Shown piece by piece: positions 47,924-63,637 of a DNA stretch of 63,782 nt (position 1 is its first letter; each line of letters begins with the position of its first letter). Made by a program: the position numbers and the translations under genes. The notes beneath the pieces are model-generated. The model had not been told where the DNA came from. It ran no database searches and was given only the letters and a program-made list of their open reading frames with translations. The stretch comes from Akkermansiaceae bacterium (lineage in GTDB: Bacteria; Verrucomicrobiota; Verrucomicrobiia; Verrucomicrobiales; Akkermansiaceae), in contig JANRFH010000044.1 in the NCBI GenBank assembly GCA_030725745.1, positions 4,343 through 68,124 on the forward strand, in the 5' to 3' direction.

Positions 47924-48022
47924 GCCCACAAGGAGCGCCGGATGCTATCCGCCGATATGAATGATATGGAAATAGCTGGGGTTGTCATTCCCCGTGCAGG
48001 TGTCGGCGCTCCGCTCCTTGTC
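47924..48022. repeat. Flanking repeat, copy 2 with inverted partner
   Basis: GCCCACAAGGAGCGCCGGAT and GCTATCCGCCGATATG repeat the word at 45909. At 48001-48022 the inverted form TGTCGGCGCTCCGCTCCTTG follows, so this copy can also fold into a hairpin. It ends at the stop of the convergent sulfatase gene and may serve as a terminator for both sides. Confidence 0.5.
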
Positions 48023-49437
48023 TATTTTTTGGATTCCCAGATGTGTGAGTCGTCCACGAGTTCACGATACTGAACTTCAAGCCGTTGTTTGAGTTCCTCT
48101 AGTTTCTCAGGATGGTTTTTCGAAAGATCGTTGCTCTCGCCGATATCGTCGGTCATGAGGAAGAGCTGGAAGTCCGAGAGGGTGGCGCTTTTTACAAGCT
48201 CTTCATCATCGGTAGTCACGGTCACGTATTTGCCGATGTTCAGCTTCGCCATCACTTTCCAATCGCCGTCACGCATGGCGACTCGGCGTTCATTGATCGC
48301 GTTATAAAATACCCAGAGCAGGGGGTGCTTGCGCTGCAATGGTTTGTTCTCAAGGGCGGGGAGGAAGTTCGTTCCATCCAGTTGGAGATCGGTTGGAGGC
48401 TCGATCCCGGAGAGGTCGCAGAAGGTGGGAAAGAAGTCCAAGGAAGAGACGGGATGTTTCACAGTCTGGCCGGCTGCGATCTTGCTTGGCCAGCGCATGA
48501 TGCCAGCGACGCGGAAGCCGGCTTCGGTTGTCCAGAGCTTCATGCCGCGTAGGGGATCGGCGACTCCGTAGGAACGCTGGGCTCTGCTGTAGCGCTTGAG
48601 GGTCTCGGGGCCGTTGTCGGAGGTGAAAATGACGAGGGTATTTTCATCGAGTCCTTTTTCTTTTAATGCTGCGAGCACCTTGCCGACAGCTGCGTCCACA
48701 TTTGCGACGTTCGCGAAATACTGGGCTTCGTCTTCGTTTTTTGAGACGTCTTTGTATTGCTCCACGAGTTCCTTGGGCGATGCCACTGGCTCGTGGGGTT
48801 CGTGAAAGGCGACATACATGAAGAAGGGTTGCTCGGGTTCGCTTTCCTGTTGTTTGCTAAGCCAGTTCAAAGCTTCATCTGCGACGAGCTGGCAGCTGTA
48901 GCCTTCGAGCTTGCCGACCTTTTCGCCATTGCGGACGAAGTTGTTCGGGTTTTCGTGGGAGGGGCTGGCGTTGTTCTGCGTGCCAAACCAATGGTCGAAA
49001 CCGGCGGCGTCTGGCTGAGGTTGCGAACCTGAGTTGAACTTTCCGTTGCAGTGCCATTTCCCAGACATGCAGGTCGCGTAGCCGGCCTTTTGCAGGAGCT
49101 GGGGGAAGGTGACTTCGGAGGCCTGCATGTAGATATTCCGTCCGCCGGGGATGAAATCGTAGATGCCTGCTCGGTTGGGGCTGCGTCCTGTGAGCAGACC
49201 CACGCGAGAGGGGGAGCAGACGGGCGCTGCCGAGTAGAAGTCGGTGAAGCGGATGCCCTCATCGGCCATGCGGTTGAGGTGAGGGGTCTTGATGTGTGGA
49301 TGGCCGTAGCACTCAAGGTCGCCGTAGCCGAGGTCGTCGCAGAGGATGACGACGATGTTGGGTCGTTTGCTTTCCACGGCAGCCAACGGAGTGAGTCCGG
49401 TGGCGATGAATAACGCGGCGGTGAGTTTTGAGAACAT
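48022..49437 (-). CDS. Exported sulfatase (formylglycine type)
   Basis: Hydrolyses sulfate esters, probably on marine or plant polysaccharide, in the periplasm or outside. Signal peptide MFSKLTAALFIATGLTPLAA; metal site NIVVILCDDLGYGDLECYG; the C-x-P-S-R motif PVCSPSRVGLLTGRSP with Cys74 to be oxidised to formylglycine; CMSGKWHCNG and the second metal site VIFTSDNGPETLKRYS. It has 471 aa. No maturase gene (anaerobic or FGE type) lies in the window. Monocistronic, facing the serpin-like gene. Confidence 0.94.
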   Translation of the reverse strand: MFSKLTAALFIATGLTPLAAVESKRPNIVVILCDDLGYGDLECYGHPHIKTPHLNRMADEGIRFTDFYSAAPVCSPSRVGLLTGRSPNRAGIYDFIPGGRNIYMQASEVTFPQLLQKAGYATCMSGKWHCNGKFNSGSQPQPDAAGFDHWFGTQNNASPSHENPNNFVRNGEKVGKLEGYSCQLVADEALNWLSKQQESEPEQPFFMYVAFHEPHEPVASPKELVEQYKDVSKNEDEAQYFANVANVDAAVGKVLAALKEKGLDENTLVIFTSDNGPETLKRYSRAQRSYGVADPLRGMKLWTTEAGFRVAGIMRWPSKIAAGQTVKHPVSSLDFFPTFCDLSGIEPPTDLQLDGTNFLPALENKPLQRKHPLLWVFYNAINERRVAMRDGDWKVMAKLNIGKYVTVTTDDEELVKSATLSDFQLFLMTDDIGESNDLSKNHPEKLEELKQRLEVQYRELVDDSHIWESKK

Positions 49438-49828: not shown

Positions 49829-50242
49829 ATGAGCGATTTCCAAAAGACTTTAGAAGAAGTGATGGGTGAGTTTTCCTGCCAGACCGGGACGATCCATCGG
49901 GCGGAGGGGAAGGTGTTGCATCTGGTGGCGCATGCGGGGGTGCCGGAGTTTCTGCTGGATAAGGTTTCAGTGATTCCTTTTGGGAAAGGGATCGCGGGGG
50001 CGGCGGCGGAGTCGCGTGAGCCTGTGGAGCTCTGCAATCTGCAGCAGGATCTTGGCGGGGTGGCGAAGGAGGATGCACGCAAGACGGGTGTCTCGGGATC
50101 GATCGCGGTGCCGGTTTTTTCCGAAAGCGGTGAAGTGATCGGGACACTGGGGATTGGCAAGGTGACGCCGTATGAGTTCACGGCGGAGGAGAAGGGGAGG
50201 CTGGGGGAGATTGCGGTGAAGCTGGCGGGGATGTTCGGGTAG
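49829..50242 (+). CDS. GAF-domain protein
   Basis: Small cytoplasmic sensor or redox-type GAF protein of 137 aa. The fold covers nearly the whole length: TGTIHRAEGKVLHLVAHAGV, VIPFGKGIAGAAAESREPVE, then VSGSIAVPVFSESGEVIGTL and GIGKVTPYEFTAEEKGRLGE. It has one Cys near the N-terminus (FSCQTG) and one in the core (LCNLQ), not the C-x-x-C pattern of methionine-R-sulfoxide reductases. The ATG at 49829 follows GGGGT. Output partner unknown; it lies just upstream of the CotH locus. Confidence 0.82.
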   Translation: MSDFQKTLEEVMGEFSCQTGTIHRAEGKVLHLVAHAGVPEFLLDKVSVIPFGKGIAGAAAESREPVELCNLQQDLGGVAKEDARKTGVSGSIAVPVFSESGEVIGTLGIGKVTPYEFTAEEKGRLGEIAVKLAGMFG

Positions 50243-50297: not shown

Positions 50298-50327
50298 CTT
50301 AACCATTTCTTAACACTTCTCACATAC
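50298..50327 (+). promoter_or_regulatory. Pho-box-like direct repeat upstream of the CotH-VTC locus
   Basis: CTTAACCA-TTT-CTTAACAC-TTC-TCACATAC: two good and one poor 8-mer at an exact 11-nt step, 59-88 nt before the CotH ATG at 50386. Cyanobacterial Pho boxes use CTTAACCT-like octamers with 3-nt spacers, and Bacillus PhoP sites use TTAACA-like hexamers with 5-nt spacers; both share this 11-nt step. With a polyphosphate polymerase and a phosphate-porin-family gene downstream, control by a PhoB/PhoP-type regulator is plausible. It could be chance in an AT-rich spacer. Confidence 0.35.
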
Positions 50328-50385
50328 TGACCTCACTTAGGCGGTGTTGGTTCATGCCGTTATCCGCAAGAACCGCAAACCCACC

Positions 50386-53300
50386 ATGACATTCTCTAAG
50401 CCTGTTGATACGCAGTACACCCGCCCCGCTTCAAAGTCCTTCCCAGAAAACTCCCTTTCCGGTTCAGCATGGAACCGAGGCATTGCTGGGTTATTTGCCT
50501 GCTTGCTGGCGTTGCTTTTTATAGGCCAGGCTTCGGCTCAGGTGATCGTCAATGAGTTCATGGCGAAGAATGACAGCACCCTGCTTGACGGCGATGGTGC
50601 GTATTCCGACTGGATCGAGCTATACAACTCGGGTAGCAGCGCAGTGGATCTGACGGGCTGGTATCTCAGTGACGATGCGACTGACCTTACTCAGTGGGTT
50701 TTCCCTACAAAGAGCATTGCGGCAGGCGAATATTTGGTGGTGTTTGCCTCCGGCAACGATACAGCGGGCTTCACGGATGGTAGTGGCTACCTGCATACGA
50801 ACTTCAAGCTCAGCGGGGATGGGGAGAGTGTCGTGCTGGTGCAATCTGATGGAACGACGGTTGAGGATTCTTCCCTCGATTACCCCGTGCAATCGGATGA
50901 TGTTTCTTACGGTGTGCGGCTGGGCTCGTCCTCTGGCGCGCTGATCTATCTGACAACCCCTACACCTGGTGCGGTCAATACAGGGGGGATCACAGGTTAT
51001 GTCGGGGATACTTCTTTCTCGGTAGATCGTGGATTTTTCACCGCCTCCTTTGATGTGGAAATCACCTGTGAAACGGCTGCAGCGGATATCTACTACACCG
51101 TCGATGGAACGGAGCCTTCAACGAGTAACGGCACGCTCTACTCGGGAGCTGTTACCATCAATAAAACGACGGTGCTTCGCGCTGCGGCCTTCCTAGCGGG
51201 CTATGAGCCGAGTAATATTGATACTCAGACGTATCTCTTTCTCACGGATATTATCGCGCAGGGGACAACGGTCACTGGTCTTGAGCCTGAATTCCCTACG
51301 GCTGCCGTGAACGGGCAAGACTTTGATTATGGAATGGATACGTCTGTTACCCAGAGTGCGACCTATGGTGGAGAGATCGAGGGTGCGATGAAGGCGATCC
51401 CCTCCATCTCGATTGTCACCGATCCGGACAACCTGTTTGATGCCGCCACGGGTATTTACGTGAATGCGGATGAAGACGGCGAGGATGTAAACGGCGACTC
51501 ACTATGGGAGCGTGAAATGTCCGTAGAGCTGATTAACCCGGATGGTTCTACAGGTTTCCAAATTGATGGCGGCATGCGTATCCGTGGAGCTTCGAGCACG
51601 AGCAGCAGCAATCCAAAGCACTCGTTCCGTCTGTTGTTTAAGTCTGAATATGGAGCGTCGAAGCTCGAGTATCCGTTGTTTGGCGAAGATGGTGCGGATA
51701 GCTTCAAACGTCTGGATCTAAGGACAGGGCAAAACTTTTCCTGGGCGAACCAAAACCCGGATGAGGCCACCTGGCTTTACGATATTTTCTCCCGCGATAC
51801 GCATCGTGACATGAACCAACCGCACACTCGCGGTGAGTATTACCACCTCTACCTGAATGGGATGTATTGGGGGCTTTATCAAACCGAGGAGCGCTGCGAC
51901 TCACGTTATGCGGAATCCTACTACGGGGGTGACAAGGATGACTACGATGCGGTCAAAGCCAACGCCGACACGGGAAACCTGTATGCGGCGGACGGCACGC
52001 GCGATGCGTATGAGGATCTATGGACGGGGATGACTGCTGGAGTCACTGCAAACGCCGCCTATTTCGCACTCCAAGGAATGAACTCTGATGGAACGGAAAA
52101 CAGCAGCGGGATCAAGCTGCTCGATGTGGATAACGTCATCGACTACATGCTCCTGACCTACTTCACCGGCAACCGCGACTCTCCGATTGGGCCGCCCAAC
52201 TCTGCGACGATGCCGCGCAACATAACATCGGTCTATAATCGTGCTGATCCTGATGGCTTCAAGTATGTGGCACACGACAACGAACACTCGCTGGAGATCG
52301 ATCAGGGGGTGAACCTCAACCGTTTCAGCCAAACGCTTGCCAGTTCTTTTGATGGTATCGACCGGATGACGCCGTGGTGGATGCATTTGAAGCTAATGAA
52401 CAACGCTGAATACAAGCTGCGTTTTGCGGATCGTGTTCATAAACATTTTTTCAATGACGGGGAACTCACAGCCGCGAAAACGGAGAGCCGGATGGAAGTG
52501 CGTAAGAATGAGATCTACTCTGCGGTAGTCGCTGAATCCGCTCGCTGGGGTGATAGCGGCTCTTCTACTAGTAGCGGCCCTGGCGGCGGAGGGCCAGGTG
52601 GTGGCGGCCCAGGTGGTGGCGGCCCAGGTGGTGGCGGCACTACGACGACTACCCGCACCCGCAATGTTGAGTGGCTCGATTCGGTGAACTGGCTGCTCGA
52701 TACCTACATGCCGCAGCGCTCCGCGATTGTTTACTCTCAGATCGTTGCGAAAGGCTGGTATCCAACAGTTGCGGCTCCAGTGTTTAGCCAACATGGAGGA
52801 AGCATCGCCTCGGGTTCCACGCTTACGATGTCTGGCACCGGCACGGTCTATTACACCACGGATGGTTCCGATCCTCGTGCAGTGGGTGGCGCTGTTTCGG
52901 GAGCGGCTTATAGCTCGGCCATTGCTCTCAGCAGCACTACGGAAATCCAGGCGCGATCCCTGAGCGGTGGCACCTGGAGTGCACTGACCTCTGCGACTTT
53001 TGAAGTGAGCGATCTTTCTCCGCTGCGTGTGACCGAGATGATGTATCACCCGGCAGCGGGCACTGCCGGAGACGAGTTGAATTACGGCGATGAGGACTTC
53101 GAATTCATTGAACTTCAAAACACCGGAACGCAAACCATCGGACTGACCGGCACCGAATTCACCGGTGGTATCTATTTCAAGTTCTCCGAGGGCGATGTCC
53201 TGAGCCTTGCCCCGGGCGAGTATGTGCTGCTCGTGAATAACCTCGAAGCCTTCACCGCACGCTATCCCGGTGCGGCCAGCATGAACATCGCCGGTGAATA

Positions 53301-53922
53301 TCACGGTCAATTTTACCTTCCCGATGCGGAGCTCGATAACGGTGGAGAGACCATCAAGCTCGTCGACAGCCTCGGCCGCACGATCCAGGAGTTCACCTAT
53401 GATGATATATGGCATCCGCTGACGGATGGCGATGGCTATTCGTTGACCTTGATTGATCCGACGGCTGACGTCAGCACGTGGAGCACGAGTACATCTTGGC
53501 GCGCCAGTGCAGCAGTAGGCGGCACACCCGGTGAGGCGGCGGAAGATCCGGATTCTGATTCTGACGGTATGCCGGACAGCTGGGAAACCGCCAACGGGCT
53601 CACGGTCGGCATCAATGACTCCGCCGCTGATGCTGATGGCGACGGATCCTCCAACCTCACTGAATACCTTGCCGGGACTGATCCTCAGTCCAGTAGTTCT
53701 GTGTTTGTGATCACCTCTCAAACAGCCCCCGTTGATGATTCGATGTCGATCACGTGGACAGGAGTCGCAGGGAAAACCTATCAAGTTTATTCTAGTGAAA
53801 ATCTCGAGGACTGGACTCCGCTCTTGCCCACCATCCCGTGTACGACAGATGGGCTTCTGTCTGCGGATATTACTACCACAGGATATACGACTCTCTTCCT
53901 CCGCATCGCGGTGAGTCCATGA
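50386..53922 (+). CDS. CotH-kinase-family surface protein with lamin-tail and Ca-binding domains
   Basis: 1178 aa, exported (signal helix GLFACLLALLFIGQASAQ, about 34-51). Order: lamin-tail domain (52-165, VIVNEFMAKNDSTLLDGDGA), a chitobiase C-terminal-like domain (205-275, DIYYTVDGTEPSTSNGTLYS), CotH domain (335-705, KAIPSISIVTDPDNLFDAAT ... MRIRGASSTSSSNPKHSFRL ... YVAHDNEHSLEI as the metal/catalytic segment), a Gly-Pro linker (731-750), a second chitobiase-like domain, a second lamin-tail domain (about 890-1020) and an EF-hand-like calcium repeat DSDSDGMPDSWETANGLTVG. CotH proteins of Bacillus spore coats are atypical protein kinases. The ATG at 50386 is chosen; 50344 is in frame but lies before the signal region. 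The last 120 residues are duplicated in the next gene. Confidence 0.85.
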   Translation: MTFSKPVDTQYTRPASKSFPENSLSGSAWNRGIAGLFACLLALLFIGQASAQVIVNEFMAKNDSTLLDGDGAYSDWIELYNSGSSAVDLTGWYLSDDATDLTQWVFPTKSIAAGEYLVVFASGNDTAGFTDGSGYLHTNFKLSGDGESVVLVQSDGTTVEDSSLDYPVQSDDVSYGVRLGSSSGALIYLTTPTPGAVNTGGITGYVGDTSFSVDRGFFTASFDVEITCETAAADIYYTVDGTEPSTSNGTLYSGAVTINKTTVLRAAAFLAGYEPSNIDTQTYLFLTDIIAQGTTVTGLEPEFPTAAVNGQDFDYGMDTSVTQSATYGGEIEGAMKAIPSISIVTDPDNLFDAATGIYVNADEDGEDVNGDSLWEREMSVELINPDGSTGFQIDGGMRIRGASSTSSSNPKHSFRLLFKSEYGASKLEYPLFGEDGADSFKRLDLRTGQNFSWANQNPDEATWLYDIFSRDTHRDMNQPHTRGEYYHLYLNGMYWGLYQTEERCDSRYAESYYGGDKDDYDAVKANADTGNLYAADGTRDAYEDLWTGMTAGVTANAAYFALQGMNSDGTENSSGIKLLDVDNVIDYMLLTYFTGNRDSPIGPPNSATMPRNITSVYNRADPDGFKYVAHDNEHSLEIDQGVNLNRFSQTLASSFDGIDRMTPWWMHLKLMNNAEYKLRFADRVHKHFFNDGELTAAKTESRMEVRKNEIYSAVVAESARWGDSGSSTSSGPGGGGPGGGGPGGGGPGGGGTTTTTRTRNVEWLDSVNWLLDTYMPQRSAIVYSQIVAKGWYPTVAAPVFSQHGGSIASGSTLTMSGTGTVYYTTDGSDPRAVGGAVSGAAYSSAIALSSTTEIQARSLSGGTWSALTSATFEVSDLSPLRVTEMMYHPAAGTAGDELNYGDEDFEFIELQNTGTQTIGLTGTEFTGGIYFKFSEGDVLSLAPGEYVLLVNNLEAFTARYPGAASMNIAGEYHGQFYLPDAELDNGGETIKLVDSLGRTIQEFTYDDIWHPLTDGDGYSLTLIDPTADVSTWSTSTSWRASAAVGGTPGEAAEDPDSDSDGMPDSWETANGLTVGINDSAADADGDGSSNLTEYLAGTDPQSSSSVFVITSQTAPVDDSMSITWTGVAGKTYQVYSSENLEDWTPLLPTIPCTTDGLLSADITTTGYTTLFLRIAVSP
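52576..52635 (+). repeat. 15-nt coding repeat (GPGGG x4) in the CotH linker
   Basis: Four 15-mers: GGCCCTGGCGGCGGA, GGGCCAGGTGGTGGC, then GGCCCAGGTGGTGGC twice. They encode G-P-G-G-G units flanked by Ser/Thr-rich stretches. The exact repeat of the last two copies invites slippage, changing linker length in 5-residue steps without a frameshift. Confidence 0.85.
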
Positions 53923-54133
53923 AGCCAAATGGTGATTTTTTTTTACGACTTCCTCGCAACATGAGTATCTCGGCGCTTAAGAATTCTCTTGTAAAATTCA
54001 ATGGTTAGCAAAGTTTCCAAAAACTGCGTCTGAAAACCCAACCATGAATGCTCATCAAAATCGCCACGAATTCAAATTCGTGCTAAAGCCCAGGCTTTTC
54101 GAAGCTCTGCGCACATGGTGGGCGAGCATCTGG
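53557..54133. repeat. 577-bp segmental duplication, copy 1
   Basis: Covers the calcium-repeat and C-terminal domain of the first CotH gene, its 3' spacer and the first 90 nt of a VTC gene. The partner is 56342-56918, the same length. TGGACAGGAGTCGCAGGGAA and the following 45 nt are identical apart from one base; the spacers align over their whole length. Confidence 0.85.
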
Positions 54134-54159
54134 AGGCCGGAGATATCGATTTTAAATAG
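54044..54159 (+). pseudogene. Truncated, frameshifted 5' copy of the VTC gene
   Basis: ATGAATGCTCATCAAAATCG begins a copy of the VTC polymerase gene at 56828: MNAHQNRHEFKFVLKPRLFE versus MNADQNRREFKFVLKPGLLD. After about residue 25 the frame slips; a second frame reads VGEHLEAGDIDFK and stops at TAG 54157-54159, matching the VGEHLVPDRGA position of the intact gene. The rest of the gene is absent, replaced by the lamin-tail gene. Confidence 0.85.
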
Positions 54160-54181
54160 CCGAAATATTCATTTTTCACTT

Positions 54182-56707
54182 ATGAAAGACCGCCTTTGTC
54201 ATTTTCAATTGGCGTTCTTCACCGCGTGCTTGCTCGCCATCTCTGAAACGGCAACCGGCACCCTAGTTATCAACGAAATCCTAGCCGATAACCAATCGAC
54301 GGTGGAAAACGCTGGCTCCTACCCGGACTACATCGAGATTCGCAACAATGGAACATCAGTCTATGATCTAGCAGGACACACCCTGACTGACGATGTCACA
54401 ATCCCCGCGAAATATACCTTCCCCTCCGGGAACACTTTAGCCGCTGGTGCACGCCTTATCATCTGGTGCGATAGCGACACTACCGCCCCCGGCCTGCACA
54501 CCGGTTTTGCCCTGAGCTCCAGCGGCAAGACTGTTGTTCTCAAGAACGGAGCCACTACTCTCGACAGCGTCACCTTCGGCCCCCAAGCCACTGACTTATC
54601 CATCGGACGAGTCACCGATGGCACTGGCACCTGGACTGCCAACGTGCCAACACCAGGACTTACCAATATTGCCAAGACCCTTGGCACTACCGCCACCCTG
54701 TCCATCAACGAGTGGATGGCCAGCCCGGCTTATGGTGACGACTGGTTTGAGCTATATAACTCCGGCACCGCTCCGGTTGCGCTCGCCAGCCTCTATCTAT
54801 CCGATAACTCAACCTCTCGCACCATCACACAGATCCCCGCGCTTTCCTACATCGGAGCGGGTAGCTTCACCAATTTCCGCGCCAACGGACTTGCCATCGG
54901 CGGAAACTCCTGCGGCTTCAAACTTTCAGCCGTAAGCGGAAGTATCTTCCTGACGGCTGCTAACGGAACCACCGCCCTTACATCGGTCAGCTACGGCATC
55001 CAGGCAGCGGACGTTTCCCAAGGTCGTTTCCCGGATGGTTCCACCACGATAAGCTCCTTCGCCAAAACAACTTCGGAGGGAAAGGCTAACTGGCTGGAAT
55101 CCTCAGTGGTCATCAATGAAGTGCTAGCCAATCCCGCCTCCGGTGGCGAGGACATGATCGAACTCTACAACACCGGAATCTCTGCGGTCGCCATCGGCGG
55201 GTGGTGGCTCAGCGATAACAAGGCGCAACCGAAAAAGTATCAGATCCCCGCAGGCACCAGCATCGCGGCCGGTGGTTATCTGGTTTTTACCGCCACCCAG
55301 TTTTCAAGTGGCACGGTTCCCTTCGGCCTGAGCTCCGCCGGCGACGAGGCCTGTCTCGCGGCAGTTAATACTTCCGGTGTGCTCACCGGCTACCGCTCGC
55401 AAGTATCCTTCGGCGCGTCCGCCGTGGGCGTTAGCTTCGGGCGTGTTGCCGCCACCGGGCTGCCTACCGATAGCGGCGGTAAAGAGTTCTGGCCGCTTAG
55501 TTTGGTCACATCCGGTTCTGTGAATAGCTCACCGGTGACGACTCCTATCATCATTAATGAAATCATGTATCATCCCGTCGACGGCGTTGGGGGGATTGAT
55601 ACCACCTCTACCGAGTTCATTGAGCTTCACAATCCAACCAACGCCGACGTAGATCTATCCGGCTGGAGGCTCAAGAAGGATTCTGATTTCACCTTCGCTA
55701 GTGGCACCAACCTGCCCGCCTTCGGCTACCTGGTCGTCGCGTTTTTTGATCCCGTCGCCGACCCCACGGCGCTCGCCACCCTGCGCTCCACTTATGGGAT
55801 GTCCAACTCCGTGCAAGTGGTCGGCCCGTATACTCCCAAACTCGCCAACAACACCCACCGACTCGAACTGGCTTACCCGGATACTACCAGCGGCACTACC
55901 GCTTATGTGAATGTGGACAAAGTGGAATACCGCGATATTTCACCGTGGCCGGTCGCGGCTGACGGCACCGGTCAGTCACTGCAACGGCTCAGTCGCTCTA
56001 TCATTGGCAACTCCTCAGACAACTGGTCCTCCGCCACGCCCACGCCCGGCACCCTCAACTCAGGCCTCTACACCACGCTCGCCATCTGGAGCCAATCACC
56101 GCTTCCCGTCGGGACGGTTGGGTCTGCCTACTCATTCACCTTTGTCGGTGTGGGCGGCACTCCCGGCTATACCTGGTCATTGGCGAGCGGGACGCTCCCG
56201 ACGGGTATTTCGCTCACCAGCGGACAACTCACCGGCACGCCCACCGCGTTAGGAACCTTTAACTTTACCATCCGCCTGACCGACTCGCTAGCAGCAACCA
56301 CCACCCAGGCATTCAGCCTCATCATCCCGACCAATGATACCGACAACGACGGCATACCCGATGCGTGGGAAACGGCGAATGGCCTCACGGTCGGCATTGA
56401 TGATTCCGCAGATGATGCCGATGGAGACGGATTCTCCAACCTCATGGAATACCTCGCGGGCACCGATCCCCAGTCAGGCAGTTCATTGCTGGCGATCTCT
56501 TCTGTTACTGCCCCGGTCAGCGATCTGATGACGGTTGTTTGGACAGGAGTCGCAGGGAAAACCTATCAAGTTTATTCTAGTGAAAATCTCGAGGCCTGGA
56601 CTCCGCACTTGCCCACCATCCCGTGTACGACAGATGGGCCTCTGTCTGCGGATATCACTACCACAGGATATACGGCTCTCTTCCTCCGCGTAGCGGTGAG
56701 TCCTTGA
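54182..56707 (+). CDS. Exported multi-lamin-tail-domain protein
   Basis: 841 aa; signal peptide MKDRLCHFQLAFFTACLLAI, then four lamin-tail domains beginning LVINEILADNQST, LSINEWMASPAYG, VVINEVLANPASG and IIINEIMYHPVDG, a putative-Ig (He_PIG-type) domain with GTPGYTWSLASGTLPTGISL, the calcium repeat DTDNDGIPDAWETANGLTVG and a C-terminal domain nearly identical to that of the first CotH protein. It has no CotH kinase domain. The frame is open back to the ATG at 54044 because it fuses by chance with the VTC remnant; the signal peptide fixes the start at 54182. It probably binds the cell surface or another lamin-tail protein. Confidence 0.8.
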   Translation: MKDRLCHFQLAFFTACLLAISETATGTLVINEILADNQSTVENAGSYPDYIEIRNNGTSVYDLAGHTLTDDVTIPAKYTFPSGNTLAAGARLIIWCDSDTTAPGLHTGFALSSSGKTVVLKNGATTLDSVTFGPQATDLSIGRVTDGTGTWTANVPTPGLTNIAKTLGTTATLSINEWMASPAYGDDWFELYNSGTAPVALASLYLSDNSTSRTITQIPALSYIGAGSFTNFRANGLAIGGNSCGFKLSAVSGSIFLTAANGTTALTSVSYGIQAADVSQGRFPDGSTTISSFAKTTSEGKANWLESSVVINEVLANPASGGEDMIELYNTGISAVAIGGWWLSDNKAQPKKYQIPAGTSIAAGGYLVFTATQFSSGTVPFGLSSAGDEACLAAVNTSGVLTGYRSQVSFGASAVGVSFGRVAATGLPTDSGGKEFWPLSLVTSGSVNSSPVTTPIIINEIMYHPVDGVGGIDTTSTEFIELHNPTNADVDLSGWRLKKDSDFTFASGTNLPAFGYLVVAFFDPVADPTALATLRSTYGMSNSVQVVGPYTPKLANNTHRLELAYPDTTSGTTAYVNVDKVEYRDISPWPVAADGTGQSLQRLSRSIIGNSSDNWSSATPTPGTLNSGLYTTLAIWSQSPLPVGTVGSAYSFTFVGVGGTPGYTWSLASGTLPTGISLTSGQLTGTPTALGTFNFTIRLTDSLAATTTQAFSLIIPTNDTDNDGIPDAWETANGLTVGIDDSADDADGDGFSNLMEYLAGTDPQSGSSLLAISSVTAPVSDLMTVVWTGVAGKTYQVYSSENLEAWTPHLPTIPCTTDGPLSADITTTGYTALFLRVAVSP

Positions 56708-56918
56708 AGCCAACTGGTGATTCCATTACATGACTTCCACATAATATGAATATCTCGGCTCTGAGGAATTTTCTTTTAAAATTCAATATATAGCAAAGTC
56801 TCCAAAACCGCATTGTAAAACCCCAAAATGAACGCTGATCAAAATCGTCGCGAGTTTAAATTCGTGCTCAAGCCAGGACTGCTAGATATCCTGCGGGCGA
56901 GCGTGGGCGAGCATCTGG
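56342..56918. repeat. 577-bp segmental duplication, copy 2
   Basis: Second copy of 53557-54133: 3' end of the lamin-tail gene, spacer and the first 91 nt of the intact VTC gene. The distance between copies is 2785 bp, and the unique material between them is almost exactly the lamin-tail gene. Confidence 0.85.
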
Positions 56919-57574
56919 TTCCCGACCGAGGAGCAGTGGACGGATACCCAGTTATTTCTGAGTATTTCGACTCAGTGGATCGTAATTCCTACTGGCAGAA
57001 GGTCTTTGGAGTTCCGAATAGGCGCCGGGTAAGAGGTCGGGTTTATGGACGGGCGGATGGCAGTATTCCGCCTAGCACCTTTATCGAGGTGAAACACAAA
57101 TTGGACGGCACCACGGTCAAGCGCCGGGTGACGATGAACTTGGAAATGCTTCATAAGTTTTCCTCCGGTGTCCTGCCGGAAACTCCACTGAATCCTGATG
57201 AAGAGCGTGTTCTTGCTGAAGTCCACGATCTTGTTACTGGCGGAGAGACCAGCCCTGCTGTGCAAATCCGCTATCTTCGCTATGCCTATGACAGTGGGCC
57301 GGAAGGTCTGATCCGGATCACATTCGACACCGAGCTGAGCTGTCGCTTCCGGCTGATTCAGTTGGTGCCGGGGGATACAGATTTTGAGCTACCGCTCCTA
57401 GAGCCGGGTGCCTCCATCATGGAGGTGAAGACGATAGGTCCCGTGCCAACATGGTTCCGCTCCATCATCGGAAAATACGGTCTGGTTCCAAGTGGCTTCA
57501 GCAAATATTCGGCCTCACTAGAACTTTACGAACACAATAAAACAACAACTAATACACAAATTCCTACCCCATGA
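56828..57574 (+). CDS. VTC-domain polyphosphate polymerase
   Basis: Likely ATP-dependent polyphosphate polymerase of the triphosphate-tunnel fold, as in yeast Vtc4. 248 aa, all domain. The tunnel residues are in place: REFKFVLK (Lys11), NRRRVRGRVYG (Arg67, Arg69, Arg71), FIEVKHKLDGTTVKRRV (Glu87, Lys89, Lys91, Lys98, Arg99), SIMEVKTIG (Glu199, Lys201) and SGFSKYSASLELYE (Lys226). It has no SPX or membrane domain; the DUF4956 membrane protein, overlapping by ATGA, may supply the membrane part. CotH, VTC and DUF4956 genes are neighbours in many bacteria, to my knowledge, but their joint role is unsolved. Confidence 0.88.
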   Translation: MNADQNRREFKFVLKPGLLDILRASVGEHLVPDRGAVDGYPVISEYFDSVDRNSYWQKVFGVPNRRRVRGRVYGRADGSIPPSTFIEVKHKLDGTTVKRRVTMNLEMLHKFSSGVLPETPLNPDEERVLAEVHDLVTGGETSPAVQIRYLRYAYDSGPEGLIRITFDTELSCRFRLIQLVPGDTDFELPLLEPGASIMEVKTIGPVPTWFRSIIGKYGLVPSGFSKYSASLELYEHNKTTTNTQIPTP

Positions 57575-58368
57575 TTGATATTATCCAGCATCTAGCCCTA
57601 CAACCCCTCGCTCAAGTTACCGAAGCTGTTACTGAGGTGGTTACGAAACAAGCAGATACGGCATTCAACTTTATGGAATGGGCATTTCCCTCCGGGAAGA
57701 TGGAAAAGTTCCAGAATAATCCTCCCAGTTTGTGGGAGGTTGTTTTCGCCATGTTTTTCAGTCTCGCACTGAACCTGGGGATAGCCCAAGTTTATCGTAA
57801 GACATACCGAGGCACGCGCTACTCGCAGGACTATGTGCAGACATTGATCGTGATCGGAGTTGTCACGACCATTCTTATTATGGTGGTTTCCGGTAACGGT
57901 GCTATCGCCTTCGGTATGTTCGCTGCTTTCTCCGTGATCCGTTTCCGCCGGAACCTCGGCCAGTCCCGAGATCTGGCGTTCGTGTTTCTCGCTATGGCCA
58001 TCGGCATGGTGGTCGGTGCCCGTCTCTGGGGAGCTGCCATACTCATCTCCACGATCGTCTGTGGTGCCATCATTGTGCTGACAAAGATCAACGCCTTCGC
58101 ACCGCGGCGCTCGTCGCACCTGCTGAATCTGCGGATGACTTGCGACATGGATTTCGACAAGCTGCTCGCGCCGATCTTCGACCGCTATACGGATCGCGTC
58201 GACATGATGCGGATTTCTTCCGCCCAAGCGGGCATGATGACCGAGCTTCGCTACGGCCTGCTGCTCAAGCTAGATGTATCGCTACCCGAGTTCATGGAAG
58301 CTCTTCATGCTGCCTGCGGCAACAACCGGGTGGTGCTCACTCCGGTAGGGAGAGATACCGAAAGCTGA
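57571..58368 (+). CDS. DUF4956 membrane protein, partner of VTC polymerase
   Basis: 265 aa. An amphipathic N-terminus, then four or so membrane helices (about 48-160): VVFAMFFSLALNLGIAQVYR, TLIVIGVVTTILIMVVSGNG, AIAFGMFAAFSVIRFRRNLG, and DLAFVFLAMAIGMVVGARLW. The loop SVIRFRRNLGQSRDLAFVF is the family hallmark. A C-terminal cytoplasmic alpha/beta domain of about 80 residues follows. It could be a channel or scaffold through which polyphosphate made by the VTC enzyme crosses the membrane; that is inference from context alone. Confidence 0.85.
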   Translation: MIDIIQHLALQPLAQVTEAVTEVVTKQADTAFNFMEWAFPSGKMEKFQNNPPSLWEVVFAMFFSLALNLGIAQVYRKTYRGTRYSQDYVQTLIVIGVVTTILIMVVSGNGAIAFGMFAAFSVIRFRRNLGQSRDLAFVFLAMAIGMVVGARLWGAAILISTIVCGAIIVLTKINAFAPRRSSHLLNLRMTCDMDFDKLLAPIFDRYTDRVDMMRISSAQAGMMTELRYGLLLKLDVSLPEFMEALHAACGNNRVVLTPVGRDTES

Positions 58369-58403
58369 ACATCAACCGATCTAACTTTTAGCCGACACCG
58401 CCA

Positions 58404-59663
58404 ATGAAAACCCACCGAATCCACCTCCTCATGGCGACTCTCGCCGCAATTCCCTTCGCCACTGCAGGAAGCAAAGAGGGCACCGACGCCAGTGAAAAAA
58501 AAGCACCCAAGAACGGCGATTGGTGCGAATGGCTGGGTGACTCTCCGGGTGAGCTATACAAGAATTCCGACAATCCATGGCTGCAGTCGTTCGAGTTAAG
58601 GGGACAATTCCAGTATCAGGCGATCTATCAGGATGGCTCCGACGTGAACGAGCGGAGCTTCCACGATACGTATGACGAATACCGGCGCCTCCGTTTCGGG
58701 ACGCGTACCGAGTTTCTCCAGTACTTGAAATTGGCTGTGGACGTCAATATGGTCGACGACAGGCGCTACCGCACCGCGCCGGATAATGATCTCGATTGGG
58801 GTTACGACGATTTCGACACCGCCACGCTCGAGGTCGATATCGACAAGTTTCTCGACAACGACCTTTTCGACAAACTGGAGCTGACCTACGGGAAAATGAA
58901 AATGCCGATCACGGGTGAGCAACGGCAGAGTTCCACTGAAATCTATACGATCGAGCGATCCATGCTCTCCAACAAGCTGGTAGGTGAGGAGAGCCGGCCT
59001 ACCGGGGTGATGCTGGATTTCGAAAAGGCCGACTGGAGTGGCTCACTGGGAATGTTCAGCGGTGAGGACGACGCCGAGTTTCTAGGCGGTTGGAACGACG
59101 GCCGCCATTATTTCGCCAGCCTCACATGGCACCCGGACGATGACTTCGATATCACCCTCGACTATGTATTCAACGACCGGAGCGGGTCTGACGACGCCCT
59201 GGGTTACCGTTCCGCCCTGGTTCTAGGCACGCACTATGACAAGAAGGAGTGGGGATTTTTGACGTCGCTGATCTACGGCGACAACGGCTTCGGCGATCCC
59301 ACCGATAGCGCGAGGAACCGGGCGAACCGGCAGGGAGATTTTCACGGCGTCACGCTGATGCCTTGGTATTGGATCGTCCAGAAGAGGCTGCAACTCGTTC
59401 TGCGCTACGAATACGCCAGTTCCGAGAAATCGGAGGGGCTGAGGCTCTCCAGCCGCTACTTGCGGGGGGATCACGACGATGCTCTCGTTGATGTGAATAG
59501 CGGCCGCGGCGATCTCTACCACGCCGCATACGTGGGGCTCAACTACTACCTCTGTGGTGATAGCGCCAAAATAATGGGTGGTATCCTGTATGAAGACCTT
59601 GATACACCCAGCGGTGATCTTGATGCCATCACCTATACCGTCGCTGTTCGCACATCGTTCTGA
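58404..59663 (+). CDS. Outer-membrane porin, phosphate-selective porin O/P family-like
   Basis: 419 aa: signal peptide IHLLMATLAAIPFATAGS, then a 16-18-strand barrel with alternating aromatic/polar strands (FELRGQFQYQAIYQDG, YRRLRFGTRTEFLQYLKLAV, FDKLELTYGKMKMPITGEQR, ITLDYVFNDRS, LQLVLRYEYASSE, ITYTVAVRTSF) and a terminal Phe for BAM recognition. Loops are very acidic (Asp-rich), unlike the basic OprP constriction, so phosphate selectivity cannot be assumed. It starts 35 nt after the DUF4956 gene and likely shares its transcript. Confidence 0.78.
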   Translation: MKTHRIHLLMATLAAIPFATAGSKEGTDASEKKAPKNGDWCEWLGDSPGELYKNSDNPWLQSFELRGQFQYQAIYQDGSDVNERSFHDTYDEYRRLRFGTRTEFLQYLKLAVDVNMVDDRRYRTAPDNDLDWGYDDFDTATLEVDIDKFLDNDLFDKLELTYGKMKMPITGEQRQSSTEIYTIERSMLSNKLVGEESRPTGVMLDFEKADWSGSLGMFSGEDDAEFLGGWNDGRHYFASLTWHPDDDFDITLDYVFNDRSGSDDALGYRSALVLGTHYDKKEWGFLTSLIYGDNGFGDPTDSARNRANRQGDFHGVTLMPWYWIVQKRLQLVLRYEYASSEKSEGLRLSSRYLRGDHDDALVDVNSGRGDLYHAAYVGLNYYLCGDSAKIMGGILYEDLDTPSGDLDAITYTVAVRTSF

Positions 59664-59674
59664 GCGGAAGTCCG

Positions 59675-62600
59675 TCAGTCTGTGAGGCTAACGCTCAGGC
59701 GGACGAACAGGCTAGGGAAGCCTGGTGCTCCGCTGGCAATTCGATAGGTTTCACGAACGAGGTTTCCTGGCAGCACAACACGCTTCACCAGAGTGCTACC
59801 CGCAGGAGGCGCTCCCCAGGAGCCGAGGTTGTCAGACTGCTGAATCACTGCGCTTATCCCAAAGGCTTCGGGATCTCGCGTGAAGGTGAAATACACTCCG
59901 TCTTCATTGGTCTCTGACTTCAATGATAACTCCTGCGGGAGAGGGAAACTTTCATCGTCATCTGCGGTGCCACTGAAGTATTCCACCAAAGAGGAAACTC
60001 CGTCGTGGTCATCATCGGAAGAGGGTGAGCCAGTGAAGAGACCGGAGCCTGAGACACTGGGCGAGCCGTTGTTAGTGATCGCCATCCAAGAATACGGATC
60101 GGAATAGTCCACATATTTGTTTAGGGTGACCAACTGCAGGCTCATGCCGTTGCCATCGGCATCCGTAGGCCACGGAGCAAGGTCATTGTAGCGGAATGAG
60201 GCGATGATGGTGCCCTCTGCATTACGGAGTTCGAGCCACTCACCGGAGTTGCCGAGATTACCTGCGTATTCTCCTCCGATACCGGCATCGGCTGTGCCGG
60301 GGTAGCGGGCGAGGAAGGCCGTGCGATCTGCCACGATGCTGATGCGCTGGCCGGGGGAGAGGACGAGTCCGGTTGCAAAGGTGTAGCGAACCCCTTCGAG
60401 GTGGTCGTTGATGACTTGCTCCGCCAGGCGCACACCGCGTAGCTCCAGATATTTGCTGGAAATGTTGGTGAGTTCGATGAACTCGAAATCCGAATCATCC
60501 GTTGATGCCGCCAGCTCGGCAGGGGTGCCCGGGTTGGCCGGATGGTAGTGGACTTCCGAGATGGCGAGCTCGCCGGGCAGGGGAGTATCAGCGGTGCTGA
60601 AATAATTCGAGGTGAGGGCAGACCATTCGCCGTTATTCAAGACGCGCGCGTTGAGGATGGTGGGCGAGTTGACGACATATCCTTGGTTGGTGGGGTTCTG
60701 CACCGAGAGATCCATGTCAAATCCAATGTCTGAGGAACCGGCACTGATCTGATGGATTTCCGCAGCGAGCACGTTCTGACCTTCCACTAACAGCAATGGA
60801 TTGATGGTGAAGGATGTGTATGCGACTTCGTCCGCATTATTGACCGAGCTGGTGGCGTAGGTGGAATAAGTGACGGCTCCGGTGGCGATATTGGAGCGGT
60901 AAACCTCGGCGCCATTCAGGTAGATGATCACTCCGTCATCCGCCAATACCGATGCGTTGATTGCTGAAACGGAAGCCGCACCACTGATGTTGAAATTACG
61001 GCGAAGGTAGCAGGTGGAGGGATTGCTTCCGCCGGATGCTGTTCCAAGTCCCATTTGAGTGGGGGGAGTGATAGCTGTGGTATTAGGGCCCAGCTCTCCG
61101 AATCCGAGGATACCAGCACCTGACTTCCATCCGGTGAGATTGAAATTCGGGTGTTTCCAGTTCGCGGAGCTATAGCCGGATACTCCGCTGACGGTAGCAC
61201 TGGATCCCCGATCCGTTCCGCTGTCATCAAAGCTCCATACGGAATTTTTTGCGAACACTTCGGTGGTTGCGTTGTATGATAAGGACAGGGCTGCGGGATT
61301 TGGGTTTCCGTTGGCAAGCCGTGGGTCGCTGCCGTCTGTGGTGTAGTAGATCGTGCCGATGGGGGCACTGATCAGGACACTGTTTCCAGCGATCACCTTA
61401 TCCGCGAAAGGGGAAAAGGTTGGGGCGGCGGTATTCTCAGGGTATAGTCCACCTCCCTTTAAGTGACCGAGAAAGACATCGGTGCGGCCGTCAATTAGTG
61501 TATTCAGGCTGCTGACTGCTCCCTTCCAGTCATCTTCATCGGCGGGATCTGTGGTGCGTGAAGAGTGTGCATCTCCCCAGCGAGCGGACTCTGCGATGAT
61601 GACCTTTCCCACCACCTCACGTCGAGCTTCCAGTGCGGCGAGGACGTTGTCTTTGGCGAGGGCGCCGTTGTTGAACAGCCTTGCATGGGCACGGTCAGCG
61701 AAGCGTAGCCGGTATTCCGGTGTGCTATCGGCCAGATCCATGTGGAGGAACTGAGGGTTACTTTTATTAAAGGCCGAGCGGCTGGCGGCGCCGTTGGTGG
61801 TGGTGATGCGGTTGTTATTATTGTTCCATCTGCTGCCTCCGGCTCCGAGCGAGTGTTCCGCATCGTGCATGAGGTGCACGAATCCACGACTTCCCAAGCG
61901 GTCTCTTACGGAATACCAGTTATTTGATGCGCCGACAAAAGACGAGAGGCTGTTGTCATAGGCACCGGTGAATCCGATGAGGAGCATGTAGTCGATGAGG
62001 TTGTCGACATCCAGCAGGACGGGGAGCGACGGATCGCGGTTGCCGTTGGCATCGAGCCCTTGCATTTGGTAATAGCGTGTCGTGCTCGGGTTGGCTAGCT
62101 GGGCTTTGGACAAGTCCCAGAGTGTGCGCCAAGCGCCGTTGAGATTGCCGTCTGTGGCCACGGTGGCATAGGTAGGAGAGTTATCACTTCCTGAGGATTT
62201 CATGGCATCGAAATCATCAGGATCCCCACCAAGATAGCTACCACCCCAGTCGGCTTCGGAGCGTTCCTGAGTCATGAATAAGCCCCAATAGACCCCATTC
62301 AGATATAGGTGATAGTAGCGGCTGCGGGTGTAAGGTTGTCCCATGGCACCCTGCAGATCCCTAGAGAGCACATCACGTAGAAAGGTGTTTGTGGATGTAT
62401 TCCCGTCCTTTGACCACGAGTAGTTTTGAGCGGTGCGGAAGTCGAACTTATCGAACTCGTCCACGCCTTCGGTTCCGAACATCGGGTAGTTCAATTTTCC
62501 ATTGCCATATTCACTGCGGAAAAAGACACGGAACGAATGTTTCGGATTGTTAGGCGTCCGGCTCGCACCGCCTCTGATACGCAATCCACAGGGAGAGCTG

Positions 62601-63637
62601 ACCGCAGGGGTCATGCCATCGCCGATAATTTCAATGTGTGCCATGCGCTCCCATGCACTGCCGTCTTCGGCAGGGTTCGAGTAAATTCCGGTCGTGGCAT
62701 TTGTTAGGTTCGCGACATCGGTGGTGAGCATCACTGAGGGGATCGCCTTGAGGGCGGTTTCCATTTCCTGAGCGGTGTAACGCCCAGTAATATCGGGATC
62801 CATGCCGTAGTCATAGACTTGGCCGTTTACCGAGGAGCTCGGCCATCCGGCAGGTGCGTTGCCATTGGCATATTGGGTGCGGACATCTGAGGGAAATAGA
62901 TAGGTCTGGGTGTCTACGTTGGTGGGGAAAAGGCCAGATTTGAAAGCGGCTGCACGCAGCACTGTGGTCTGGCTGATGGTCAAAGGAGTGGAGTAGACTG
63001 TCCCCGTCGTCGCAGTGGGTGTGGAGCCATTTGTGGTGTAGCGGATCTGGGCGCCCACGGTTTCGGTGGTGATTTCCACACTAAATGACGATGTAAAAAT
63101 CCCCCGATCCACTGAAAAAGCCGTATCGGCCACGCGGCCAGCAATGCTTACGGAATTCGCTGCTCCGGGTGTTGGCGAAACGAAGTAGCCGTTGGTGGTG
63201 CCATCAGGGCCTATGCCGTAGGAGATGTCTTCTTCTTGGGTAGGGAATGTGGGCGAATACTCGTGCAGCACGGTTCCAGAGGGATCGATGAGGCCGAGGT
63301 ATTCTCCGCTGGCGGATAGTTTGAAATTCGTGTGAAGCTGGCTACCCGCTACCGCCCTGTCATTAGAGGATGCGAAGATGACGAGATAGCCACCCGCAGG
63401 AATGCTTACGGCCGGGAAAGTCCATTTGGAGAGGTTCGTCGCATCATCGGTGATGCGGTATCCGGCGAGAGGCACGGCACTTGCTCCGGTGTTGCGTATT
63501 TCAATCCAGTCCGAAGCCACGCCGTCCTCATCGAGGAGGCTGATGCCGGAATTTGATGCGAGAAACTCGGAGATCACCAGATCTCCGCGCGCGGGTATAG
63601 AGCACAGTGCTAGTGCTGCCAGAATGGATTTATACAC
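59675..63637 (-). CDS. Second CotH-kinase-family giant surface protein
   Basis: 1320 aa, exported (MYKSILAALALCSIPARGDL, GTG start). Order: lamin-tail domain (18-125, LVISEFLASNSGISLLDEDG), chitobiase-like domain (165-245, IRYTTNGSTPTATTGTVYST), CotH domain (290-690, GLRIRGGASRTPNNPKHSFR and VHLMHDAEHSLGAGGS), a second chitobiase-like unit (GTIYYTTDGSDPRLANG), a galactose-binding-like jelly roll (815-960, WKSGAGILGFGELG and LADDGVIIYLNGAEVYRSN), a second lamin-tail domain (about 1020-1160, FEFIELTNISSKYLELRG) and a C-terminal domain. Same architecture as the CotH protein at 50386 plus the jelly roll, but its C-terminal domain differs. Convergent with the porin, 11 nt between stops. The 145 nt to the window edge hold its promoter; I see no clear ribosome site. 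Confidence 0.85.
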   Translation of the reverse strand: MYKSILAALALCSIPARGDLVISEFLASNSGISLLDEDGVASDWIEIRNTGASAVPLAGYRITDDATNLSKWTFPAVSIPAGGYLVIFASSNDRAVAGSQLHTNFKLSASGEYLGLIDPSGTVLHEYSPTFPTQEEDISYGIGPDGTTNGYFVSPTPGAANSVSIAGRVADTAFSVDRGIFTSSFSVEITTETVGAQIRYTTNGSTPTATTGTVYSTPLTISQTTVLRAAAFKSGLFPTNVDTQTYLFPSDVRTQYANGNAPAGWPSSSVNGQVYDYGMDPDITGRYTAQEMETALKAIPSVMLTTDVANLTNATTGIYSNPAEDGSAWERMAHIEIIGDGMTPAVSSPCGLRIRGGASRTPNNPKHSFRVFFRSEYGNGKLNYPMFGTEGVDEFDKFDFRTAQNYSWSKDGNTSTNTFLRDVLSRDLQGAMGQPYTRSRYYHLYLNGVYWGLFMTQERSEADWGGSYLGGDPDDFDAMKSSGSDNSPTYATVATDGNLNGAWRTLWDLSKAQLANPSTTRYYQMQGLDANGNRDPSLPVLLDVDNLIDYMLLIGFTGAYDNSLSSFVGASNNWYSVRDRLGSRGFVHLMHDAEHSLGAGGSRWNNNNNRITTTNGAASRSAFNKSNPQFLHMDLADSTPEYRLRFADRAHARLFNNGALAKDNVLAALEARREVVGKVIIAESARWGDAHSSRTTDPADEDDWKGAVSSLNTLIDGRTDVFLGHLKGGGLYPENTAAPTFSPFADKVIAGNSVLISAPIGTIYYTTDGSDPRLANGNPNPAALSLSYNATTEVFAKNSVWSFDDSGTDRGSSATVSGVSGYSSANWKHPNFNLTGWKSGAGILGFGELGPNTTAITPPTQMGLGTASGGSNPSTCYLRRNFNISGAASVSAINASVLADDGVIIYLNGAEVYRSNIATGAVTYSTYATSSVNNADEVAYTSFTINPLLLVEGQNVLAAEIHQISAGSSDIGFDMDLSVQNPTNQGYVVNSPTILNARVLNNGEWSALTSNYFSTADTPLPGELAISEVHYHPANPGTPAELAASTDDSDFEFIELTNISSKYLELRGVRLAEQVINDHLEGVRYTFATGLVLSPGQRISIVADRTAFLARYPGTADAGIGGEYAGNLGNSGEWLELRNAEGTIIASFRYNDLAPWPTDADGNGMSLQLVTLNKYVDYSDPYSWMAITNNGSPSVSGSGLFTGSPSSDDDHDGVSSLVEYFSGTADDDESFPLPQELSLKSETNEDGVYFTFTRDPEAFGISAVIQQSDNLGSWGAPPAGSTLVKRVVLPGNLVRETYRIASGAPGFPSLFVRLSVSLTD

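Follow-up and report, generated by a model that had tools for sequence, protein, structure and literature searches.

A VTC–DUF4956 gene pair beside an outer-membrane porin and exported CotH proteins in an Akkermansiaceae bacterium: a possible route for polyphosphate to the cell surface

In the genome of an Akkermansiaceae bacterium (assembly GCA_030725745.1; 3.42 Mb), a gene for a VTC-type polyphosphate polymerase stands with genes for a DUF4956 membrane protein, an outer-membrane porin, a lamin-tail protein and two large exported CotH proteins, which raises the question of what a polyphosphate polymerase might do in such company. The locus lies in a 63.8 kb stretch of contig C44 that reaches the end of that contig and was analysed as a whole (the window). 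We propose that it encodes a membrane-coupled polyphosphate polymerase whose product is exported to serve surface CotH proteins, a reading to which we give a probability of about one half. All genes named in an initial annotation, made from the sequence alone, were found over Pfam cut-offs; none of the six locus proteins matched an NCBIfam model over its cut-off. CotH1, the lamin-tail gene, VTC, DUF4956 and the porin follow one another on the + strand, and CotH2 is convergent with the porin, 12 bp apart:

50386-53922, + strand: CotH1, exported lamin-tail domain (LTD) / Fn3_assoc/CHB_HEX (chitobiase-like) / CotH / LTD protein (Pfam; CotH 82.9 bits, cut-off 23.8)
53600-54133, + strand: left copy of a direct duplication, with the CotH1 3′ end, the spacer and a copy of the first ~30 codons of VTC (439/530 bases identical to the right copy)
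54182 (likely start; open reading frame (ORF) from 54044) to 56707, + strand: exported lamin-tail protein with four LTD stretches (Pfam)
56385-56918, + strand: right copy of the duplication (pairwise alignment)
56828-57574, + strand: VTC-type polyphosphate polymerase, a tunnel enzyme of the triphosphate tunnel metalloenzyme (TTM) type, 248 aa (PF09359, 100.2 bits, cut-off 23)
57571-58368, + strand: DUF4956 membrane protein with transmembrane (TM) helices and a C-terminal ACT domain, MgtC-like (PF16316, 61.2 bits, cut-off 30.6; AlphaFold2 (AF2) model)
58404-59663, + strand: outer-membrane barrel of the OprO/OprP (Porin_O_P) type (Pfam, 32.5 bits, cut-off 20.9; AF2 model)
59675-63637, − strand: CotH2, exported LTD / CotH-kinase / LTD protein (Pfam; CotH 63.9 bits, cut-off 23.8)

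The CotH1 ORF is open from a GTG at 50344, with the ATG at 50386 the more likely start. N-termini resembling signal peptides, as judged by eye, were seen in both CotHs, the LTD protein and the porin.

A VTC profile matched yeast Vtc4 chains in the PDB at 9e-25 to 5e-18 and Vtc2/Vtc3 at 2e-14 to 4e-11, and the single VTC sequence gave no PDB match. Our alignments took in 25 VTC and 24 DUF4956 sequences of the loci. The tunnel residues R69, R71, E199, K11, K89, K201 and K226, which had looked intact in the window sequence, were invariant across the 25 aligned VTCs, and they align with yeast Vtc4. Among their counterparts, as paired in this alignment, are R264, R266 and E426, the Vtc4 residues whose mutation impairs that enzyme (PubMed Central (PMC) article PMC9911596). 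The active-site residues are intact, and polyphosphate is the product we infer. The yeast VTC complex (Vtc4 with Vtc1/Vtc3; PMC9911596) shares the tunnel polymerase domain with its conserved catalytic residues, which is here paired with a membrane protein. The yeast complex differs in having SPX and a Vtc1-type membrane domain (Pfam found neither an SPX nor a membrane domain in the 248-aa protein, and PF09359 alone) and in its place at the vacuole, whereas here the membrane partner would be DUF4956 and the site the cell envelope. A crude hydropathy measure found a hydrophobic N-terminus in 0/133 VTCs. Profile searches of the genome gave one VTC, one DUF4956 and five CotHs. PPK1 was present in 21/21 VTC-bearing genomes of the window's family, so VTC is an additional synthase there and not the sole one.

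The comparisons below rest on 63 VTC loci, 53 from a survey of the order (141 genomes, 49 with and 92 without VTC) and 10 added from the genus; L and G numbers denote loci and genomes. The DUF4956 start overlaps the VTC end by ATGA; the two had been taken for a unit, and the survey bears this out. DUF4956 was in the stretch at 59/63 VTC loci and within 300 bp of VTC at 58/63, and at the four loci without it the contig ends 0-47 bases past VTC; in L079, a CotH sits between the two. By genome, DUF4956 was present in 47/49 with VTC versus 5/92 others in the order survey, and the two families were found in the identical 3/14 control genomes. VTC and DUF4956 are a fixed pair. The five order-survey genomes with DUF4956 and no VTC are G088, G123, G092, G112 and G127; four of the five matches lie in longer frames (373-424 aa), possibly a separate subfamily.

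What kind of membrane protein is DUF4956? Crude hydropathy gave a median of four TM segments over 140 frames, and an AF2 model of the window protein (predicted local distance difference test (pLDDT) 78.8, predicted template modelling score (pTM) 0.57) shows helices in its membrane part and ends in a domain resembling ACT. For the latter, Z reached 10.3 with ACT domains, and 9.0 and 8.2 with the C-terminal domains of two solved MgtC structures; comparable scores came from other ferredoxin-like folds, the ACT fold itself is common, and these matches hardly touched the TM part. In hhalign, DUF4956 against MgtC reached a score of 39 with a probability of only 76%, and 26 control clusters scored at most 17. 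The MgtC model PF02308 matched neither the window DUF4956 (which was hit only by DUF4956, at E 0.01) nor any other protein of the genome, Foldseek with DUF4956 returned nothing better than 3e-3, and a DUF4956 profile had no match in the PDB. DUF4956 and MgtC would have in common a TM bundle followed by a C-terminal ACT domain, and differ in that the MgtC Pfam model does not match DUF4956. SIR_1592, a streptococcal member, is likewise described as an MgtC TM part plus ACT (Raju et al. 2025, PMC12345266). Frames of ~450-480 aa with DUF4956 occur in six loci that also hold VTC and CotH (L113:2908-4353, L108, L121, L122, L129 and L142), mostly of Chloroflexi type, and the N-terminal part of the L113 frame is a 3-keto-disaccharide hydrolase domain.

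The gene after the pair was scored with our own profiles at the 56 loci that have DUF4956 and more than 600 bases downstream of it. It was HlyD at 29, a porin at 13, CotH at 6 and something else at 8, and a Pfam scan of 35 of these genes found HlyD_3 in 21, HlyD_D23 in 16 and Porin_O_P in 9. TolC-like OEP genes were present in 11/29 HlyD stretches, adjoining HlyD in 9, and Pfam agreed on their identity in 5/5 scanned; L063 and L073 bring OEP, CotH, VTC, DUF4956 and HlyD all together. Both kinds of neighbour occur within the genus, the porin in the window, L048, L189 and L191-L193, and HlyD in L187 and L194-L196; L042, L044 and L190 have neither, and L188 is cut off. The initial annotation had proposed surveying such neighbourhoods, and VTC, DUF4956 and a next-gene conduit proved to be conserved in the order: judging by these family assignments, the gene after the pair usually encodes a putative envelope conduit. 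In L042:7589-8344 and L044:10051-10854, a frame with a weak or clear type IV pilin-like N-methylation motif takes the place of the conduit after DUF4956.

In the window, where our profiles found neither HlyD nor OEP, this conduit is the porin. Its assignment to the phosphate-selective type agrees with the Porin_O_P match and with the AF2 model (pLDDT 79.1), a barrel whose three closest structures were an OprO mutant (Z 29.3, root-mean-square deviation (rmsd) 3.5), OprP (29.1, 3.4) and OprO (29.0, 8.8), over 317-331 residues, with the next porin, PorB, at Z 25.0. The OprO/OprP porins are thus the closest solved structures and share the Porin_O_P domain; they differ in that a profile of our porins found no sequence match in the PDB and in the Lys-rich N-terminal segments of some linked porins. 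These segments, lying between the signal peptide and the barrel, are PASK segments (20 residues with at least 75% D/E/S/K; PMC12345225) and were found in 6/12 linked porins of the family versus 2/278 other proteins of the same stretches, counts in which relatives are not independent. PASK-like motifs are called rare among the bacteria examined in that paper, where Lys-rich stretches are reported to bind polyphosphate (PMC12345225). An unlinked paralogue of the porin in the same genome has no PASK segment; near it, on contig C3, lies a second CotH/LTD giant (L088:6707-15622).

A porin of this type also invites the opposite direction of transport. OprO and OprP serve uptake. The porin might import phosphate or pyrophosphate, VTC–DUF4956 might store polyphosphate in the cell or periplasm, and CotH would be a passenger; OprP is specific for phosphate (title of PDB entry 2o4v), the MgtC-like and ACT parts would fit phosphate or ATP sensing, and 44/63 loci have no CotH in the stretch. 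We hold this to be unlikely, given that HlyD and TolC-like OEP, which are export-type parts, occupy the same position, that PPK1 is already present, that CotH is linked to the pair above chance in the family and that VTC, DUF4956 and CotH recur together across phyla. Among the closest known arrangements is tripartite export through HlyD and a TolC-type channel, both of which adjoin VTC–DUF4956 in other families of the order; here, however, no ABC, MFS or RND family matched more than one of the 70 scanned proteins that flank HlyD-type loci, although single pump genes are possible, and DUF4956 would be the inner-membrane part (the scan covered 70 of 73 proteins; 25 of its 84 matched families are listed, and each remaining family is one protein). 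When a cytosolic tunnel polymerase is linked to a membrane protein by overlapping genes, and conduits of two unrelated kinds come next, the simplest explanation would be that a phosphate polymer is made and exported in one coupled process.

We then asked whether CotH belongs to the locus. At the VTC loci of the window's family, CotH was in the stretch at 8/21 versus 0.65 expected (P 6e-8), the expectation being derived from CotH count and genome size with even gene spacing assumed, and this upholds the tie between CotH and the locus that the initial annotation had drawn. In family f4, CotH adjoins the pair at 5/9 VTC loci in genomes that hold one or two CotHs (expectation 0.02, for five loci chosen afterwards), and the sole CotH of G120 is 38 bp from VTC. 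Over all loci, the count was 19/63. One could instead suppose that VTC, DUF4956 and the porin form a unit of their own, beside which CotH and lamin-tail genes piled up because these genomes have many of them. CotH matches do number 30 or more in some genomes of the order, and adjacency says little there for that reason; 13 of the 21 family loci lack CotH, and the window's lamin-tail gene looks inserted. Yet most CotH counts in the window's family are low while the linkage far exceeds expectation, G120 has no other CotH to offer, and CotH1-like genes follow VTC in the genus even when they lie apart from it, so that piling up is quite improbable. For the window itself, chance is an unlikely reason for two CotHs within 3 kb of the genome's sole VTC.

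The relationships among CotHs point the same way. In a tree of 83 rows (stretches below 200 aa and L091 omitted, 17 broad loci kept, unlinked rows taken from VTC-bearing genomes only), CotH1, CotH2, the CotH of G190 and the VTC-linked CotHs of f2 genomes and of a named Verrucomicrobiales metagenome-assembled genome (MAG) form a clade of eight rows, all linked (100/95), and the other three CotHs of the genome are placed elsewhere. In G190, another genome of the genus, a CotH domain 81% identical to CotH1 adjoins the porin of L191. CotH1-like genes were present in 12/14 VTC genomes of the genus versus 4/59 others (p 8e-9), in 9/14 versus 4/59 when more than 300 bits were required (p 1e-5), and in 11/12 versus 3/16 among genomes of at least 4 Mb (p 2e-4); this table was counted by hand, and the Fisher tests treat genomes as independent, so that shared descent inflates the figures. 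Across the genus, the presence of a CotH1-like gene goes with that of VTC, linked or not. The CotHs, secreted and following the locus even from elsewhere in the genome, would be the users of its product.

Both CotH1 and CotH2 keep the kinase-site residues K, D, N and D, among which we take the Lys to bind nucleotide and the two Asp to be catalytic and metal-binding, as in work on Bacillus CotH. A hydrophobic N-terminus was found in 89/101 CotHs by crude hydropathy. A CotH profile matched Bacillus CotH (PDB 5jd9) at 3e-22, whereas phmmer with CotH1 against the PDB returned mainly antibody-linker and other Gly-rich matches (best 60 of 75). The window proteins share a homologous domain with this spore-coat kinase, including the K/D/N/D residues, and differ from it in being exported and in carrying LTD domains.

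The lamin-tail protein, in contrast, had been counted as a component of the system, and this part of the annotation is weakened. The ORF start at 54044 is a degenerate copied stub of the VTC start, belonging to a duplication of at least 530 bp with 83% identity (439/530) that spans the 3′ terminus of the gene before it, the spacer and the beginning of VTC; its left edge is the edge of the aligned stretch and may reach further left. Since the lamin-tail gene lies between the two copies, it probably came between CotH1 and VTC through this duplication, which implies an older order of CotH-VTC-DUF4956-porin. L040 keeps this order, with 38 bp from CotH to VTC, and in both L040 and L187 CotH directly precedes VTC with no lamin-tail gene between. 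From the layout of the copies, the window's lamin-tail gene is probably a later insertion and not a core component. Lamin-tail-only ORFs do occur in 10/63 VTC loci, in six cases no more than 3.5 kb from the pair, which leaves room for an accessory role. As a core component the protein is not favoured, given its place between the copies, its absence from that place in L040 and L187, and LTD at only 7/80 named DUF4956 loci. Upstream of the locus, the window encodes a sulfatase (48022-49437) and a small GAF-domain protein (49832-50242).

How far does the association reach beyond the order? The named DUF4956 loci were the best 80 of 497, picked by likeness to mostly CotH-linked DUF4956s, and their neighbours were listed where the frame had at least 100 aa, lay within 7 kb and overlapped no larger frame. 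VTC was present at 68, CotH at 67 and both at 58, which is not an unbiased frequency because of this choice and because at least three loci (L092, L156 and L165) repeat contigs of the order survey. The trio occurs in Bacteroidota, Planctomycetota, Chloroflexota, Gemmatimonadota, Proteobacteria, Patescibacteria, Woesearchaeota, a methanogen and others, and all three families match in the genomes of two laboratory organisms, Corynebacterium glutamicum and Methanosarcina acetivorans (presence, not adjacency). Calcineurin-like phosphoesterases lie in or near some trio operons (L095:10055-10945, L100:13263-14438, L166:7590-8534), and a Kordiimonadaceae MAG has two VTC/DUF4956/CotH sets side by side in opposite orientation (L167:9174-19299).

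The same three families are in print, which limits the novelty that had been claimed. Whitfield et al. 2020 (PMC7112168) reported CotH, a polyphosphate polymerase and DUF4956 next to pel in streptococci, clostridia and bifidobacteria, Lepp et al. 2010 (PMC2879425) list VTC and CotH genes close together in Clostridium perfringens, and in Streptococcus intermedius deletion of DUF4956 or CotH lowers aggregation and changes the Pel level (Raju et al. 2025, PMC12345266). According to the latter paper, the three-gene synteny was not found outside the Pel locus; our 58/80 named loci with the trio contradict this. No paper we found, among open-licence PMC articles, described VTC with a porin or with HlyD. 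The Gram-positive Pel accessory genes (PMC7112168; SIR_1592-1594, PMC12345266) thus resemble the window in having the three families side by side and a DUF4956 of MgtC TM plus ACT type; they differ in that the window adds a diderm conduit gene, has LTD giants as CotHs and has no Pel gene among its locus genes, and in that the trio extends over many phyla.

These precedents suggest that VTC, DUF4956 and CotH might be accessory to an exopolysaccharide, using phosphorylation to tune a surface polysaccharide or the proteins that partner it, with no polyphosphate exported. Besides the pel clusters and the deletion phenotypes, glycosyltransferase-like genes and an O-antigen ligase near some trios would suit this. 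Against it, PelG was found in just 3/50 trio genomes searched, two of them above cut-off and, by coordinates, with PelG outside the trio stretches; no polysaccharide synthase family recurred among the 70 scanned proteins beside HlyD-type loci; and the conduit genes and PASK porins would be left unexplained. By Pfam, none of the six locus genes is a pel gene, the genome itself not having been searched for PelG. We doubt this explanation, and, with PelG in so few trio genomes, a Pel accessory role outside Gram-positives is not favoured.

Polyphosphate export to surface CotHs remains the reading we prefer, and would proceed as follows. VTC, docked on DUF4956, would make polyphosphate from ATP in the cytosol; the MgtC-like DUF4956 would pass the chain through the inner membrane, where its ACT domain may act as a gate; and the product of the next gene would carry the chain over the outer envelope, the exit here being the OprO/OprP-type porin and, in other families of the order, an adaptor of the HlyD type that is accompanied in some cases by a TolC-like channel. 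Outside, secreted CotHs would use the chain, most likely by phosphorylating or decorating surface or matrix proteins. To our knowledge, ATP is not expected outside the cell. That CotH might draw its phosphate from polyphosphate is conjecture, though in keeping with this lack. The resulting scheme, in which surface phosphorylation is powered by exported polyphosphate through VTC, a DUF4956 channel, a porin or HlyD/TolC exit and CotH kinases with polyphosphate replacing ATP, is speculative, and we offer it only tentatively.

Several observations weigh against export to CotHs. The porin could just as well import phosphate, and no PASK segment was found in the window porin, in 6/12 of the family or in L087, the one linked porin outside it. 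At 8/56 loci, the next gene was neither HlyD, porin nor CotH. VTC is patchy, being present in 14/73 genomes of the genus, 13/21 family loci have no CotH in the stretch, and the sister of the window's CotH clade consists of five unlinked rows and one linked. In 55 of the 97 CotH domains of a wider set, the catalytic-Asp column of the alignment is empty, and this holds for most of those of the trans-phylum trio type; these CotHs may not be kinases, and their chemistry may differ from that of the Bacillus kinase. In S. intermedius, no aggregation phenotype is reported for the VTC deletion (PMC12345266), unlike the DUF4956 and CotH deletions, which speaks against the simple form of this reading in that species.

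If surface phosphorylation powered by exported polyphosphate is correct, it would represent a general way to run extracellular kinases, spread over bacteria and archaea. The locus family supplies candidate genes for bacterial surface polyphosphate and for secreted kinase-fold proteins that could work without ATP, and its parts, a VTC polymerase, a small membrane partner, a conduit and a secreted enzyme, suit gene-by-gene study.

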